This document shows positions 2,491 through 21,003 of a stretch of 64,000 bases of DNA, piece after piece. The DNA comes from Solimonas terrae (GTDB lineage Bacteria > Pseudomonadota > Gammaproteobacteria > Nevskiales > Nevskiaceae), in assembly GCF_011067135.1 (NCBI RefSeq), contig NZ_JAAMOW010000012.1:1-64000 (forward strand). Direction: 5' to 3'. The translations under genes and the position numbers were made by a program. Each line of letters starts with the position of its first letter. Within the stretch, counting starts at the first letter, position 1. Under the pieces are notes generated by a model. It made no database searches and was not told the DNA's origin. It saw nothing but the letters and a program-made list of their open reading frames with translations.

Positions 2491-5274
2491 ATGGAAATGA
2501 CGTCTAAGCGCAAGCGGAAGGGCGTGCAGTTTGCCCTCACCGCGATCGCATCAGTCGCCGCGGTAATGTGTTTCGAGGGTGCGGCTTACGCACAGGATGC
2601 CGCAGCCACGGCGGGCGCAAGCGCCGACCAGACGACGGAACCGGCGGAAATCATCATCACCGGTTCGCGCATCCGTCAGGTGCAGAAAGAGGGGCCGACC
2701 CCGGTCACGATCATCACGCGCGACGATATCGACAAGGCCGGATACCAGTCGGTCACCGACGTGCTGGAAGGCATGTCCCAGAACACCGGCGGTTCGTTCA
2801 ACACCAGCACCTCGTTCTCGTTCGGTGCCGGTGCGCAGACCGTCGACCTCAAGGGCTTCGGCTCCAATCGCACGCTGATTCTCATCGACGGCCGCCGTCA
2901 GGCGATCGATCCGGTGTTCCTGTCGCAAACCAACCAGTCGGTCGATCTTTCGACGATTCCGCTGGCGATGGTCGATCGCATCGAAGTGCTGACCGACGGC
3001 GCGTCCGCCATCTACGGTTCGGATGCCATCGGCGGCGTCATCAACATCATCACCAAGAAGTCGATCAACGGGGGCATGCTCAGCGTTCGCGGCGGCACGA
3101 CGCAGCACGGCGGCCACGACAACGGTGAAATCCAGTTCGGTGCCGGTGTCGCGAACGACAAGATGTCGTTGAACGTCGCGGCTTCGTACAACAAGAGCAA
3201 CCGCCTGATGTTCACCGACCGCAAGTATTCGGAGTCGGACGCCACCAACGGCGGCACTTTCAGCGGTTACGGTTCGAATTTTGTCGATCCGTCAGGCGCC
3301 TTGCTTGCATCCGATCCGGATTGCGGCACGGGCAATGCCGGCGACTCGACTGCCGGTGCCGGCGTGATCGTGGGAACGCGTTGCCGTTTCGATCGCGCCA
3401 AGTACCGCGAATGGTATCCGGACTCCGAGCGCGGCTCGGTGACGGTCTGGGGCGACCGCACGCTGCCGTTCCTGGACGCGACTGCGTTCGGCCGCTTCAC
3501 CTACGTCAAGGAACAGCAGGCGTTCCGGCTCGAGCCGTTCCCGTATGGCGGCGGCGAGACCTCGAACGGCGTCATTCCCGACAGCGAATTTCCGGACGGT
3601 CGTGGCCTGATTCCGGCCGGCTCGCCGGGCAATCCGACGACCGGCACTGGTGACGAGCAGGACGGATATTTCAACCGGCGTCTGGTCGAGTTCGGTGGTC
3701 GCGGCAGTGACGTCTCGAGCCAGAACTACAACGGTGTGCTGGGCGTCCGCGGTCGTCTCGATGATTACGACTGGGAAGCGGCGGTGTCGCAGAGCCACGC
3801 GTCGGTCTATACGCGGACTCGCGGCAACTTCATCAGCAGCGTGCTCGACTATCTGGTCCTGTCGCGTGGGCTGAATCTGTTCGATCCGATTCCGCAGGAT
3901 GTGGTCGACGAGGCCGGCTACACGCCGACCAGCCTCGGTGTATCGAACAACACAGGTATCGACGCAACGGTCTCCGGTCCGCTGCACATCGATCTGCCGG
4001 GTGGTCCGATCCAGGCTGCTCTGCACTGGGATTACAACCACGAAGATTTCAGCAGCCGCAACGACAAACTGTCGGTGTTCGGCGATACGCCGGACGGCGC
4101 GGCGCCGGACGCGGCGGGTTCGCGTTCCTACTACGGTCTGGCATTTGAGTTGCAGCTGCCGATCATCAACAGCCTCGAGCTCGGTCTGGCGGGTCGTTAC
4201 GACGACTACAACATCAATTCCGTGGGTGGCCAGTTCAGCCCGAAGGTGTCGTTGGCCTATCGTCCGCTCGAGACCGTGCTGGTGCGTGCGTCGTACGGCA
4301 ACACCTTCCGCGCACCGGACCTGGTCGCGCTGTACGCCGGTCAGTCCTCGGGCTTCGAGACAGTGGTTGACACCCGCGCATGCCGTGCCTCCGGCCACAA
4401 TCCGGGCGACGACGTGCCGGAGTGCGCGGACATCCAGTCCGTGCCGGTCGTCAATGGCTCCAATCCCGACCTGAAGTCGGAGAAGGGCTGGAACTGGAAC
4501 GTCGGCGTCAGCTGGGAAATCGTCAAGGATCTGACCGTCTCGGTCGATCACTACACGATCTCGCTCAACAACATCGTCGAAGTACTGACGGCTCAGCAGG
4601 TGGTGGACAGCTGCGCAAACGAGGGGCTGCTCTGCGATCAGATCACGGATTCCGTTTCGCATCCCGGCTCGCCCAGTGGCTTGGGCAACGCGGTTGGTGG
4701 CTACTCCGACGCACAGATCAGCGCCGGCGCCGCGAACTTCGCGAGCCAGCGCCTGAAGGGAACCGACACCAAGATCGACTATCGCATCAATACCGGCGTC
4801 GGCAAGTTCACCAACACGCTGACCTGGACCTGGCTGCAGTCGCTCAAGGTCAAGATCGATCCTTCGGCGCCGGCGGAAGAGCAGCTCAATTACGGTGGCA
4901 GCGTGACCGTGCCCCGGCATCGTCTCTCTCTGGTCAACGATTGGTCGTACAGCGCCTATGGTGCCTATGTGAAGACGAACTTCATCGGCAAGCTGCCGGG
5001 TGCGTTGCCGAACGAGACCAGCGGTCCGATTGCGTCGGATGAGTTCTATCCGTCGTTCCTGACCATAGACCTGCAGCTGCGCTACACGCTGCCGGCTTCG
5101 CTGGGCATGGTTCGTCTCGGCATCGACAACATCCTCGATCGTGACTTCCCGCTCGATCCGACCGAGAAGGTGGGCGGTTCCAACACGGCGAACGAGTTCA
5201 TCACGGGTGCTGGTCCGTCGTACTTCAGCCCGCTGGGACGCGCCTACTACCTGCAGTACGAAGTCACGTTCTGA
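2491..5274 (+). CDS. TonB-dependent outer-membrane receptor
   Basis: A 927-residue TonB-dependent receptor. A signal peptide occupies roughly residues 1-34 (charged KRKRK start, cleavage near AYA/QDA). A TonB-box-like EIIITGSRI precedes the plug domain (about 50-190), which contains the conserved TPVTIITRDDIDKAGYQSV, TLILIDGRR and YGSDAIGGVINIITKK elements. The remainder is the beta-barrel, with the motif VRASYGNTFRAPDL and a terminal phenylalanine (QYEVTF) needed for outer-membrane insertion. The substrate is not evident; this receptor group in environmental Proteobacteria takes up iron complexes, oligosaccharides or peptides. It stands alone between a 201-base upstream region and a strong terminator. 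The nearby peptide permease and secreted protease make peptides one possible substrate. Confidence 0.93.
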   Translation: MEMTSKRKRKGVQFALTAIASVAAVMCFEGAAYAQDAAATAGASADQTTEPAEIIITGSRIRQVQKEGPTPVTIITRDDIDKAGYQSVTDVLEGMSQNTGGSFNTSTSFSFGAGAQTVDLKGFGSNRTLILIDGRRQAIDPVFLSQTNQSVDLSTIPLAMVDRIEVLTDGASAIYGSDAIGGVINIITKKSINGGMLSVRGGTTQHGGHDNGEIQFGAGVANDKMSLNVAASYNKSNRLMFTDRKYSESDATNGGTFSGYGSNFVDPSGALLASDPDCGTGNAGDSTAGAGVIVGTRCRFDRAKYREWYPDSERGSVTVWGDRTLPFLDATAFGRFTYVKEQQAFRLEPFPYGGGETSNGVIPDSEFPDGRGLIPAGSPGNPTTGTGDEQDGYFNRRLVEFGGRGSDVSSQNYNGVLGVRGRLDDYDWEAAVSQSHASVYTRTRGNFISSVLDYLVLSRGLNLFDPIPQDVVDEAGYTPTSLGVSNNTGIDATVSGPLHIDLPGGPIQAALHWDYNHEDFSSRNDKLSVFGDTPDGAAPDAAGSRSYYGLAFELQLPIINSLELGLAGRYDDYNINSVGGQFSPKVSLAYRPLETVLVRASYGNTFRAPDLVALYAGQSSGFETVVDTRACRASGHNPGDDVPECADIQSVPVVNGSNPDLKSEKGWNWNVGVSWEIVKDLTVSVDHYTISLNNIVEVLTAQQVVDSCANEGLLCDQITDSVSHPGSPSGLGNAVGGYSDAQISAGAANFASQRLKGTDTKIDYRINTGVGKFTNTLTWTWLQSLKVKIDPSAPAEEQLNYGGSVTVPRHRLSLVNDWSYSAYGAYVKTNFIGKLPGALPNETSGPIASDEFYPSFLTIDLQLRYTLPASLGMVRLGIDNILDRDFPLDPTEKVGGSNTANEFITGAGPSYFSPLGRAYYLQYEVTF

Positions 5275-5312
5275 ACGGACGTCGAACTTCAGAGCTGAAG
5301 CGGCACGAAATG

Positions 5313-5345
5313 AGGAGACGCCAGGTTTGGCGTCTCCTTTTTCTT
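5313..5345 (+). terminator. Rho-independent terminator after the TonB receptor gene
   Basis: GGAGACGCCA (5314-5323) pairs perfectly with TGGCGTCTCC (5328-5337) around a GGTT loop and is followed by TTTTTCTTT. It lies 39 bases after the receptor stop codon. Confidence 0.88.
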
Positions 5346-5553
5346 TGGCGGCCGTTTTTTGGCAATGTGACGCAGGGCAGACGGACCCTGGACACGCGCA
5401 GCAGGTCTGCTGCGGATCGACGGAGGTTCTCGCAGCGGTCGGGCGACCTCATAATCCGCCGGTCAGGCCGCCAGTCTCGATTCAGATCGGCAGCACTCGC
5501 CAACTGGACGTCCCTCGATGCAGGCAGAACGGCGTACGGATTAAGAAGATGCA

Positions 5554-6459
5554 ATGTTCGTGAACAGCAAGGGTTCGGTAGGCGGCGTCGCCTTCGCCTT
5601 CGCCATCGTCTATGTCGTCTGGGGATCGACCTATCTGGCGATCCGCATCGGCGTGCACGACGCGCCTGCGATCCTGTTTGCCGGCACGCGCTTTCTGCTC
5701 GCGACCGGCCCGATGCTGGCCTATGCGTACTGGCGTGGCGCGCGCCTGCCGAAAGCGCGCCGCGACTGGGCCGTGATCGCGATCACGTCGTTGCTGATGC
5801 TGGTTGGTGCCAACGGCCTCGTTACCTGGAGCGAGCAATGGGTGCCGTCGAACCAGGCGGCCCTGCTGGTGGCGACCTCGGCGCTGTGGATGGCCGGCTT
5901 CGGGACGCTGGGCCTCAGTGGCGAGGCCCTGAGTCGCTGGACGCTGGCTGGCTTGATCGTCGGATTTCTCGGTGTCGCGGTGCTGGTGGGTGACGGTTTG
6001 CGTGCGGCGCTCGCGCCCTGGCCGGCGTATCTGGCGCTGGTCATTTCGCCGATCTTCTGGGCGGCGGGATCGGTCGTGTCGCGACGGCATCCGGTCGGTT
6101 GTCCACCACCGATGGCCGCGGCCCTGCAGATGGCAATCGCCGGCATCGTGCAAACCGGACTGGGGCTGTCGCTCGGCGAGACGGCGCAGTGGCACTGGAC
6201 GTCCGGCACCGTCGGCGCGCTGATCTATCTTGCCCTGCTGGGCTCCTGTCTCGCGTATGGGGCGTACTTCTGGCTCGTGCACGAGGTGACGCCGTCGCAA
6301 CTCGGCACCTATGCCTACGTGAACCCTGCAGTTGCCGTCCTGCTTGGCTGGCTGGTGCTCGACGAGCGTCTGAGCGAAATGCAGATCGGCGGCACGCTGA
6401 TCATCCTGCTGTCGGTGATCGGCGTCAGCCTGGCGTCGCGGCAGCCCCGATCGGCATGA
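5554..6459 (+). CDS. DMT-superfamily (EamA/YedA-like) inner-membrane exporter
   Basis: A 301-residue protein with about ten transmembrane helices made of two EamA repeats. The N-terminal VYVVWGSTYLAIRIGV and the GANGLVTWSEQWVPSNQAALL segment are characteristic of the YedA/RarD-type branch of drug/metabolite transporters. These proteins usually export amino acids or small metabolites across the inner membrane; the substrate here is unknown. The stop codon overlaps the start of the following oppA gene (ATGA at 6456-6459), so the transporter is translationally coupled to a peptide importer. One speculative reading is that it removes surplus amino acids released from imported peptides. Confidence 0.88.
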   Translation: MFVNSKGSVGGVAFAFAIVYVVWGSTYLAIRIGVHDAPAILFAGTRFLLATGPMLAYAYWRGARLPKARRDWAVIAITSLLMLVGANGLVTWSEQWVPSNQAALLVATSALWMAGFGTLGLSGEALSRWTLAGLIVGFLGVAVLVGDGLRAALAPWPAYLALVISPIFWAAGSVVSRRHPVGCPPPMAAALQMAIAGIVQTGLGLSLGETAQWHWTSGTVGALIYLALLGSCLAYGAYFWLVHEVTPSQLGTYAYVNPAVAVLLGWLVLDERLSEMQIGGTLIILLSVIGVSLASRQPRSA

Positions 6460-17196: not shown

Positions 17197-17592
17197 TCAA
17201 GCGATCGGCGCGCCGTCCGGTGGCGCGCCATCGGCCGCGAGCAGATGCGCCTGGCCATCCGGCGCCAGTGCACCAAGCACGAGGAACTGGCTCTTGAAAC
17301 CGGCGATGCGCCTTTCGCCCAGATTGAGTGCACCGACCACGCGCCGCCCGATCAGTGTAGCGATCGCATAGTGCGTGATCTGTGCGCTGGTCTCGAGCAC
17401 GCCGACGGCCGGGCCGAAATCGACGCGCAGGCGGTACGCGGGTTTACGCGCCGCGGCAAACGGCTCGGCCGACACGATGGTGCCGATGCGCAGGTCGACG
17501 GCGAGAAAGCCGTCGATGCCGCAGGGTTCCTTGCGCGGCAGCTTGTCCGGCGCATACGGCAGCGCATCGCGATCGATGACGTGTCGGACCAT
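17197..17592 (-). CDS. CsaA/YgjH-like tRNA-binding (EMAP/OB-fold) domain protein
   Basis: A 131-residue protein with the tRNA-binding OB-fold domain from about residue 28: VDLRIGTIVSAEPFAAARKP, then TSAQITHYAIATLIGRRVVG and the end motif FKSQFLVLGA. These are the conserved segments of CsaA, the MetRS C-terminal domain and Arc1p/EMAP proteins. CsaA has been described as a secretion-related chaperone, but direct tRNA binding is better supported for the family. ATG at 17592 is preferred; a TTG two codons upstream is possible. It stands alone, 195 bases from ilvE, with a palindromic repeat in between. Confidence 0.85.
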   Translation of the reverse strand: MVRHVIDRDALPYAPDKLPRKEPCGIDGFLAVDLRIGTIVSAEPFAAARKPAYRLRVDFGPAVGVLETSAQITHYAIATLIGRRVVGALNLGERRIAGFKSQFLVLGALAPDGQAHLLAADGAPPDGAPIA

Positions 17593-17654
17593 ATTCAAAA
17601 ATCCGTGAAGAGCATCGCGAAGCTTGTAGGGACGCGTTGCATGCGCCGTGCGGG

Positions 17655-20821: not shown

Positions 20822-20862
20822 GAAAACAGAAAACCCCCGCCGGTCGTGTGCGCCGGCGGGGG
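20822..20862 (-). terminator. ilvG attenuator (Rho-independent terminator)
   Basis: Read on the minus strand, CCCCCGCCGG (complement of 20853-20862) pairs perfectly with CCGGCGGGGG (complement of 20834-20843) around a nine-base loop and is followed by TTTTCTGTTTTCT. The hairpin lies 20 bases after the stop codon of a Leu/Val-rich leader peptide and about 60 bases before the ilvG start, the position of a transcription attenuator. Stalling in the leader should favour an antiterminator; I did not define the alternative pairing exactly. Confidence 0.88.
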
Positions 20863-20882
20863 TTCTTGATGTCGAACAGCCC

Positions 20883-20945
20883 CTACGGCGCGTCGCTAAC
20901 GACGACCGCTACAACGAGAAGGGCGAGCTGCTTGAACAGGTTCAT
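20883..20945 (-). CDS. ilvL: ilv operon leader peptide
   Basis: A 20-residue peptide, MNLFKQLALLVVAVVVSDAP, starting with ATG at 20945 and ending 20 bases before the attenuator stem. Ten consecutive codons, residues 7-16, are Leu, Ala or Val (three Leu, five Val, two Ala), with no Ile codon. This matches leader peptides of branched-chain amino acid operons, where ribosome stalling at Leu/Val codons under low charged tRNA prevents termination. A longer open frame upstream of this ATG exists but is not needed. Too short for routine gene prediction, so it may be missing from automated annotation. Confidence 0.85.
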   Translation of the reverse strand: MNLFKQLALLVVAVVVSDAP

Positions 20946-20973
20946 TGCTTTGGTTTTGCGAAAAAGCGCCGCG

Positions 20974-21003
20974 AGTCTAGCGGGATGGATCGTCCGTGCG
21001 CAA
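20974..21003 (-). promoter_or_regulatory. Candidate sigma-70 promoter for the ilv leader
   Basis: On the minus strand, TTGCGC (complement of 20998-21003) and TAGACT (complement of 20974-20979) are separated by 18 bases and lie about 30 bases upstream of the leader peptide ATG. Each hexamer matches consensus at four of six positions. Confidence 0.4.

Follow-up and report, generated by a model that had tools for sequence, protein, structure and literature searches.

The window analysed here, a stretch of 64,000 nucleotides from a contig of Solimonas terrae (Gammaproteobacteria; Nevskiaceae), carries on its minus strand, in order of transcription, a gloA gene, a promoter-like site, a short open reading frame (ORF) rich in leucine and valine codons, an intrinsic terminator, and two genes of branched-chain amino acid synthesis, assigned here to ilvB and ilvE (Table 1). 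The terminator is located between the short ORF and ilvB, which starts 67 nt past the T-run, and a gap of 188 nt separates ilvB from ilvE. The gene after ilvE (17197-17598, minus strand) encodes a small, putatively CsaA-like protein in which a tRNA-binding domain (PF01588) was found. A similar protein start (MVQHVID...) follows ilvE in five related loci (L007-L010 and L015), and the gene may belong to the ilvB–ilvE unit. A tRNA scan of the window found none.

Table 1. Features of the ilvB locus, in window coordinates.
Feature	Position	Strand	Description and basis
gloA	21435-21046	-	Upstream, same strand as ilvB; ends 42 nt before the -35 site
Promoter-like site	20974-21003	-	-35 TTGCGC (21003-20998), 18-nt spacer, -10 TAGACT (20979-20974); consensus scan and conservation
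Leader peptide ORF	20883-20945	-	20 codons and TAG, MNLFKQLALLVVAVVVSDAP; ATG at 20945, TAG ends at 20883
Helix 1:2 (pause/protector hairpin, predicted)	20885-20909	-	Over Ala-Val-Val-Val codons and leader end
Antiterminator segment 2	20880-20891	-	GCGCCG-UA-GGGG; covers the last two codons, the stop and a further three G; pairs with segment 3
Antiterminator segment 3	20850-20861	-	CCCC-GC-CGGCGC; overlaps terminator 5' arm; pairs with segment 2
Intrinsic terminator	20830-20864	-	12-bp stem (arms 20864-20853 and 20843-20832), 9-nt loop, T-run; alignment and folding
ilvB, acetohydroxyacid synthase (AHAS) I-type large subunit, 571 aa	19047-20762	-	Tree, Gln column, NCBIfam TIGR00118
ilvE, branched-chain aminotransferase, 356 aa	17788-18858	-	NCBIfam PRK13357 and TIGR01123 above cut-off

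The original prediction described a 20-residue leader with ten consecutive Leu/Val/Ala codons and no Ile codon, closed by a stop, and the reading frame bears this out. The run occupies residues 7-16, and the ORF holds five Val, four Leu and no Ile codons, with Val at positions 11, 12, 14 and 15. The window was scanned for ORFs 12-35 codons long that contain at least 10 Leu/Val/Ala/Ile codons in a row and have, no more than 60 nt downstream, a perfect stem (10 bp or longer) with a T-run. The scan retrieved this single ORF, and none in 100 dinucleotide shuffles; when the stem was dropped from the criteria, 0.05 such ORFs were found per dinucleotide shuffle. The perfect stem and T-run reported earlier are also present, except that the stem has 12 Watson–Crick pairs and not ten; it is followed by UUUU and CUGUUUUCU.

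Folding of the window transcript yielded the 2:3 helix when the transcript was cut at segment 3 and the terminator at full length. Among the minimum-energy folds of cut transcripts from the host family, the 2:3 helix was present in 20 of 32 and absent in 12 (8-pair criterion); as equilibrium folding of one strand, this says little about timing. The folded 158-nt region has a z of -2.31, a stability equalled or exceeded by 4 of 200 shuffles. At the gathering score, Rfam gave no match in the window, and the nine sub-threshold matches on the element that appeared with lax thresholds (rdlD, STnc310 and others), far below the cut-offs, probably reflect the strong stem.

The leader and terminator are present in all 22 loci of the host family that have an ilvB orthologue (60-100% identity). 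A covariance model, R1, was built from these 22 family sequences without any enteric sequence, and its search of 58 family genomes, the source genome among them, returned 32 elements at E <= 1e-9. Full-length ilvB occurs in 26 of the 58 genomes, with the element just upstream in every one; a 27th genome (G072) has an ilvB fragment only, at a contig edge, and no element was found there. In G062 and G077 the elements lie at contig edges before the ilvB start. An intact element also precedes an internally shortened ilvB of 336 aa in G016, an assembly only 79% complete (L158, reverse complement 630-1794), and a 114-aa ilvB remnant in G013 (L155, 544-1046). In G009 and in G026, the latter a 90% draft, no IlvB orthologue was found and the element stands directly before ilvE, whose frame begins about 60 nt past the terminator; this position favours the inclusion of ilvE in the controlled unit.

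All 32 family elements have a leader of 19-22 aa in which the frame, the stop and the Val-rich core are kept. Of the 160 residues at positions -9 to -5 relative to the stop, 118 are Val and one is Ile, and the Ile codons of the family leaders nearly always lie outside this Val core. The terminator (3:4) is paired in 99.2% of 372 alignment cells and has 4 pairs with compensatory changes, a result equalled by none of 500 shuffles. For the antiterminator (2:3), tested on an alignment fitted to 3:4 alone, 97.4% of 306 cells are paired and 3 pairs show compensatory changes (31 distinct sequences); 5 cells changed on both sides were reached by none of 500 shuffles and the 3 double-change pairs by one of 500, and pairing falls to 40-58% when the partner is slid by 1-3 columns. 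The double changes are GC to AU in L021/L022, CG to UA in L025/L026/L164 and CG to GC in L157. In L025/L026/L164, the change of the leader from GCG CCG to GCG TCG co-occurs with that of segment 3 from CGGCGC to CGACGC and with a change in segment 4; both helices are therefore kept. Helix 1:2 is paired in 91.4% of cells, with covariation no better than in shuffles. The conservation of the Val core, the stop and both helices in relatives, together with the compensatory changes in both terminator and antiterminator, supports the view that this is a complete ribosome-mediated transcription attenuator.

The span originally proposed also takes in the promoter-like site, from whose position transcription is predicted to start at about 20967, with a 5' leader of about 21 nt. 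The pattern TTG(A/C)NN, 18-nt spacer, TAG(A/T)(C/T)T recurs in 9 of 9 same-genus ilvB loci (L001, L007-L012, L016, L017). Shine-Dalgarno-like words (eight tested, -18 to -4) were found in none of 26 leader upstream regions, as compared with 11% of shuffled upstream sequence; the chance of this, if the regions were independent, is about 0.04, and the leaders are related, which makes the result a weak one. The ilvB start of the window likewise has no such word. Efficient translation of the leader is thus an assumption, since a Shine-Dalgarno-like word is absent. Only 6-9 nt separate the end of the best -10 hexamer from the ATG in three sets of relatives, L013-L015 (g8), L025-L026 (g10) and L027 (g2), the -35 being poor in L025 and L026. 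The position of this promoter motif suggests that the transcripts of these relatives start at the ATG or no more than about 3 nt from it and would be leaderless, a prediction that does not apply to the window copy. A leader start codon at the 5' end of the transcript is reported for trpL of Sinorhizobium meliloti in the account of that system (PMC7298713); the S. meliloti case differs in its amino acid, operon and lineage.

The gene downstream had been taken for ilvG, in a classic ilv operon, and the element could then be an ilvGMEDA-type (ilvL) attenuator that merely lost its Ile codons. The general anatomy is indeed common to such leaders, and the best NCBIfam model for the protein, PRK08155, scores 754 bits, below its cut-off of 870; TIGR00118 (AHAS large subunit) is above its cut-off. 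However, a tree of 56 selected AHAS proteins is divided by a branch with 100/99 support. The window protein and its 21 orthologues fall on the same side as Rhodocyclaceae and enteric IlvB and one row each from Myxococcales, Fibrobacteres and Fusibacter; the opposite side holds enteric IlvG together with IlvI-type proteins and those of Bacillus and cyanobacteria. Support for joining the family directly to beta-proteobacterial and enteric IlvB is only 91/77 and unstarred, and the tree program gave a long-branch warning. In three listed records of Escherichia coli, the matching locus is annotated ivbL, ilvB, ilvN.

The protein sequence offers a further, less decisive, character. At the Trp-464-type column, Gln is found in 22 of 22 family proteins and in 7 of 7 enteric and beta-proteobacterial IlvB rows, and Trp in enteric IlvG and in the source genome's own IlvI-type protein; Gln is not decisive for IlvB, because L028, L030, L031 and L101, all on the IlvG side of the tree, share it. 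Acetolactate is the precursor of valine and leucine. Trp at this column is described in a 2017 study as a key 2-ketobutyrate site, AHAS I having Gln and no preference for 2-ketobutyrate, and by the same account AHAS I in growing E. coli would make almost entirely acetolactate (PMC5727371). A Val/Leu leader without Ile therefore suits ilvB.

The RNA itself points the same way. R1 matches the ivbL region in all eight enteric ilvB loci given (L039, L040, L042-L045, L047, L048) with 55-63 bits (E 2e-15 to 1e-17, these E-values being rough), the beta-proteobacterial loci L036 and L037 with 47 bits each, and the Myxococcales and Fibrobacteres IlvB loci with 46 and 35 bits; these matches outside the family lie at the right place and on the right strand. 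In L038, L041 and L049 the match covers the terminator part only (25-33 bits), and L079 gave none. R1 had no match at E <= 0.01 in L087, L095 or L107, the three enteric ilvGMEDA loci it was given. Since R1 finds the enteric ivbL loci and not the ilvGMEDA leaders, the element is a member of the ivbL type and not merely an analogue. The neighbours in the window, gloA, ilvE and the tRNA-binding-domain gene, are likewise not ilvM, ilvD or ilvA. By tree and covariance model, then, the downstream gene is ilvB (AHAS I) and not ilvG, and an ilvL-type origin is improbable.

This assignment also removes an apparent oddity. The original prediction presented the lack of Ile codons as unusual, and it is to be expected because the attenuator is of the ilvBN/ivbL type. 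According to the study concerned, E. coli ivbL is responsive to Leu as well as Val, but only to Val once its Leu codons have been replaced (PMC11187965). Nor is the lack of Ile conserved, since Ile codons, one or more, occur in 29 of 32 family leaders, as an ilvL origin would allow; only three leaders, that of the window among them, have none, and the absence was rejected as a special feature.

The likeness to E. coli ivbL (ilvBN) extends from the Val/Leu leader without Ile and the control of the AHAS I large subunit to the details of the RNA. In both, the stop codon lies within the antiterminator stretch (GCGCCGUAG), the terminator core CCCCGCCGGCGC is nearly identical, and the leader end and stop pair with the 5' arm of the terminator; the same GCGCCGTAG and CGGCGC occur in the enteric ivbL regions L039, L042 and L048. 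The window leader differs in having 20 codons where ivbL has 32, a DAP end in place of NAP, and Val codons GTC, GTT and GTA, as opposed to GTG and GTC in ivbL; it also has ilvE downstream and no IlvN match or Shine-Dalgarno-like word. With enteric ilvL (ilvGMEDA) it shares the class of mechanism and the general layout, whereas ilvL holds several Ile codons and precedes an IlvG with Trp at the 2-ketobutyrate site.

Order-level relatives (L028-L032) with a Marinobacter-like leader also have a branched-chain leader and a terminator before an AHAS large subunit, but their leader ends in (P/T/S)(T/A/S)GG, the scan gives a 12-nt loop and the AHAS belongs to another clade of the tree. R1 matches them weakly (18-24 bits), at full length in L028 and L029 and partially in L030-L032. 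The leader in Marinobacter (L101, L103) is of the same GG-containing type. Val-rich leaders before AHAS genes were also seen in Fibrobacteres, Myxococcales, Breznakibacter and Spirochaetes loci (L050, L052, L096, L072); R1, run on L050 and L052 of these, matched both. In Rfam, no match was obtained on the ivbL region of L042. The family Rev39_5p_UTR (RF02744), whose description is that of a 5'UTR from soft-rot Enterobacteriaceae, has a match on the ilvGMEDA leader region of Citrobacter (L107, 3373-3663), and is probably the ilvL attenuator. Attenuators in proteobacteria were reportedly surveyed by Vitreschak and others in 2004. In the literature searched, no ilvB–ilvE attenuator and no ivbL outside the enterics was recognised, which is not proof of absence in print.

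What had been called a minimal ilvG–ilvE unit is an ilvB–ilvE unit lacking ilvN, and the missing ilvN is the less usual part. A small-subunit gene between ilvB and ilvE was rejected on account of the 188-nt gap and the lack of an IlvN match. With E. coli IlvN as query, the ~1.5 kb downstream of ilvB gave no match at E <= 1 in any of the 22 family loci; in loci L036-L048 the same query found a match immediately behind the AHAS gene every time (13 of 13). In the source genome, one AHAS small subunit was found, IlvH-like and beside ilvI, and an IlvN profile gave one match at E <= 4e-10 in each of 61 genomes, source included, the seven second matches being weak (E >= 2.9e-4). IlvB may work alone or borrow IlvH. 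Downstream of ilvB, ilvE is present in 17 of 22 orthologous loci, and was not found within 1.5 kb in five (L021, L022, L025-L027). Elsewhere, ilvI (plus strand) and ilvH–ilvC (minus strand) are divergent, with about 160 nt between the frames, at G000:C11 581441-584915 (L003, L116, L117), in place of a single ilvIHC operon; opposite strands were also seen in at least G002, G022, G023, G054 and G059. In L160 (G029; reverse complement 4103-5595), a dehydrogenase-like gene, so judged by eye, lies past ilvB–ilvE and is followed by a gene for a 144-aa protein with a weak IlvN-profile match (E 9.7e-4), probably an unrelated ACT-domain protein.

Codon choice in the leaders is unusual. The 115 Val codons of 22 leaders comprise 63 GTC, 26 GTA, 21 GTT and 5 GTG, as compared with 564 GTG among 860 Val codons in ilvB of the same loci. 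In the same comparison, CTG makes up 8 of 50 Leu codons in the leaders and 976 of 1405 in ilvB, and ATC 10 of 24 Ile codons and 553 of 642, respectively; over all 32 leaders, GTG stands at 9/169 and CTG at 12/69. Upstream of the last nine codons, which form the helix region, GTG is absent (0/30) and GTA, the rarest Val codon of ilvB (14/860), reaches 14/30. Ala is unshifted overall (GCC 30/64 in leaders, 881/1988 in ilvB), but upstream of the last nine codons GCC accounts for 23 of 25 Ala codons and GCG for none, with GCG at 893/1988 in ilvB; there, Gln stays CAG (23/23) and Pro CCG (5/5). A shift specific to Val, Leu and Ile was rejected because Ala is shifted too, and RNA-folding constraints may therefore explain part of the codon bias. 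Modelling work holds that the sensitivity of attenuation needs a particular choice among synonymous codons (PMC1183508).

Taken together, these data make it very probable that the element is an ivbL-type ribosome-mediated transcription attenuator controlling the ilvB–ilvE unit. Transcription would start just upstream of the leader ORF. With charged Val-tRNA, and probably Leu-tRNA too, in plentiful supply, the ribosome would reach the UAG inside segment 2 and mask this segment; segments 3 and 4 could then pair as the terminator, and transcription would stop about 67 nt before ilvB. When Val or Leu is short, the ribosome would stall on Val codons 11, 12, 14 and 15 and cover segment 1; segment 2 could then pair with segment 3, and RNA polymerase would read into ilvB and, as predicted, ilvE. 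Judging from codon positions, Val most likely dominates the control, and Leu, whose codons lie further upstream, comes second.

It might be supposed instead that the short ORF is unused, that the stem is the terminator of gloA, and that ilvB has a separate promoter downstream. The gloA gene does lie just upstream on the same strand, and strong terminators are common after genes. Against this, the Val-rich core, the stop and the leader-overlapping antiterminator are conserved, and gaps within the leader are multiples of three whereas those between stop and terminator are not. Moreover, the element stays with ilvB or ilvE while the sequence upstream of it differs, with a gloA-like end in L008-L011, other sequence in L013-L015 and an opposite-strand gene in L155. 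We regard a gloA terminator as slightly less probable even than an ilvL origin. Least probable of all is that the leader peptide acts in trans as a small protein, a role reported for peTrpL of S. meliloti in the account of that peptide (PMC7298713), since the N-terminal half of the leader varies freely across the family and pairing of the RNA with segment 3 could account for its conserved DAP end.

As an ivbL-type attenuator, the element works by what is an ordinary mechanism, and its interest is modest: it lies in the missing ilvN, in the switch before ilvE alone and in the leaderless prediction in relatives. A joint reading can be put forward tentatively, and we consider it rather doubtful: the AHAS I of the family would have lost its feedback subunit IlvN, leaving the attenuator as the main remaining valine sensor of this step, with a leader mRNA read without Shine-Dalgarno sequence and leaderless in three genera; on loss of ilvB, the attenuator would have been kept and re-used for ilvE alone. 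Control would then have moved from the enzyme to the RNA. The analysis provides a set of 32 related attenuators, matched by no Rfam family here, in which both competing helices show compensatory changes. The missing ilvN, together with the two genomes in which the switch precedes ilvE, offers a usable case for studying how attenuation and enzyme feedback replace one another.
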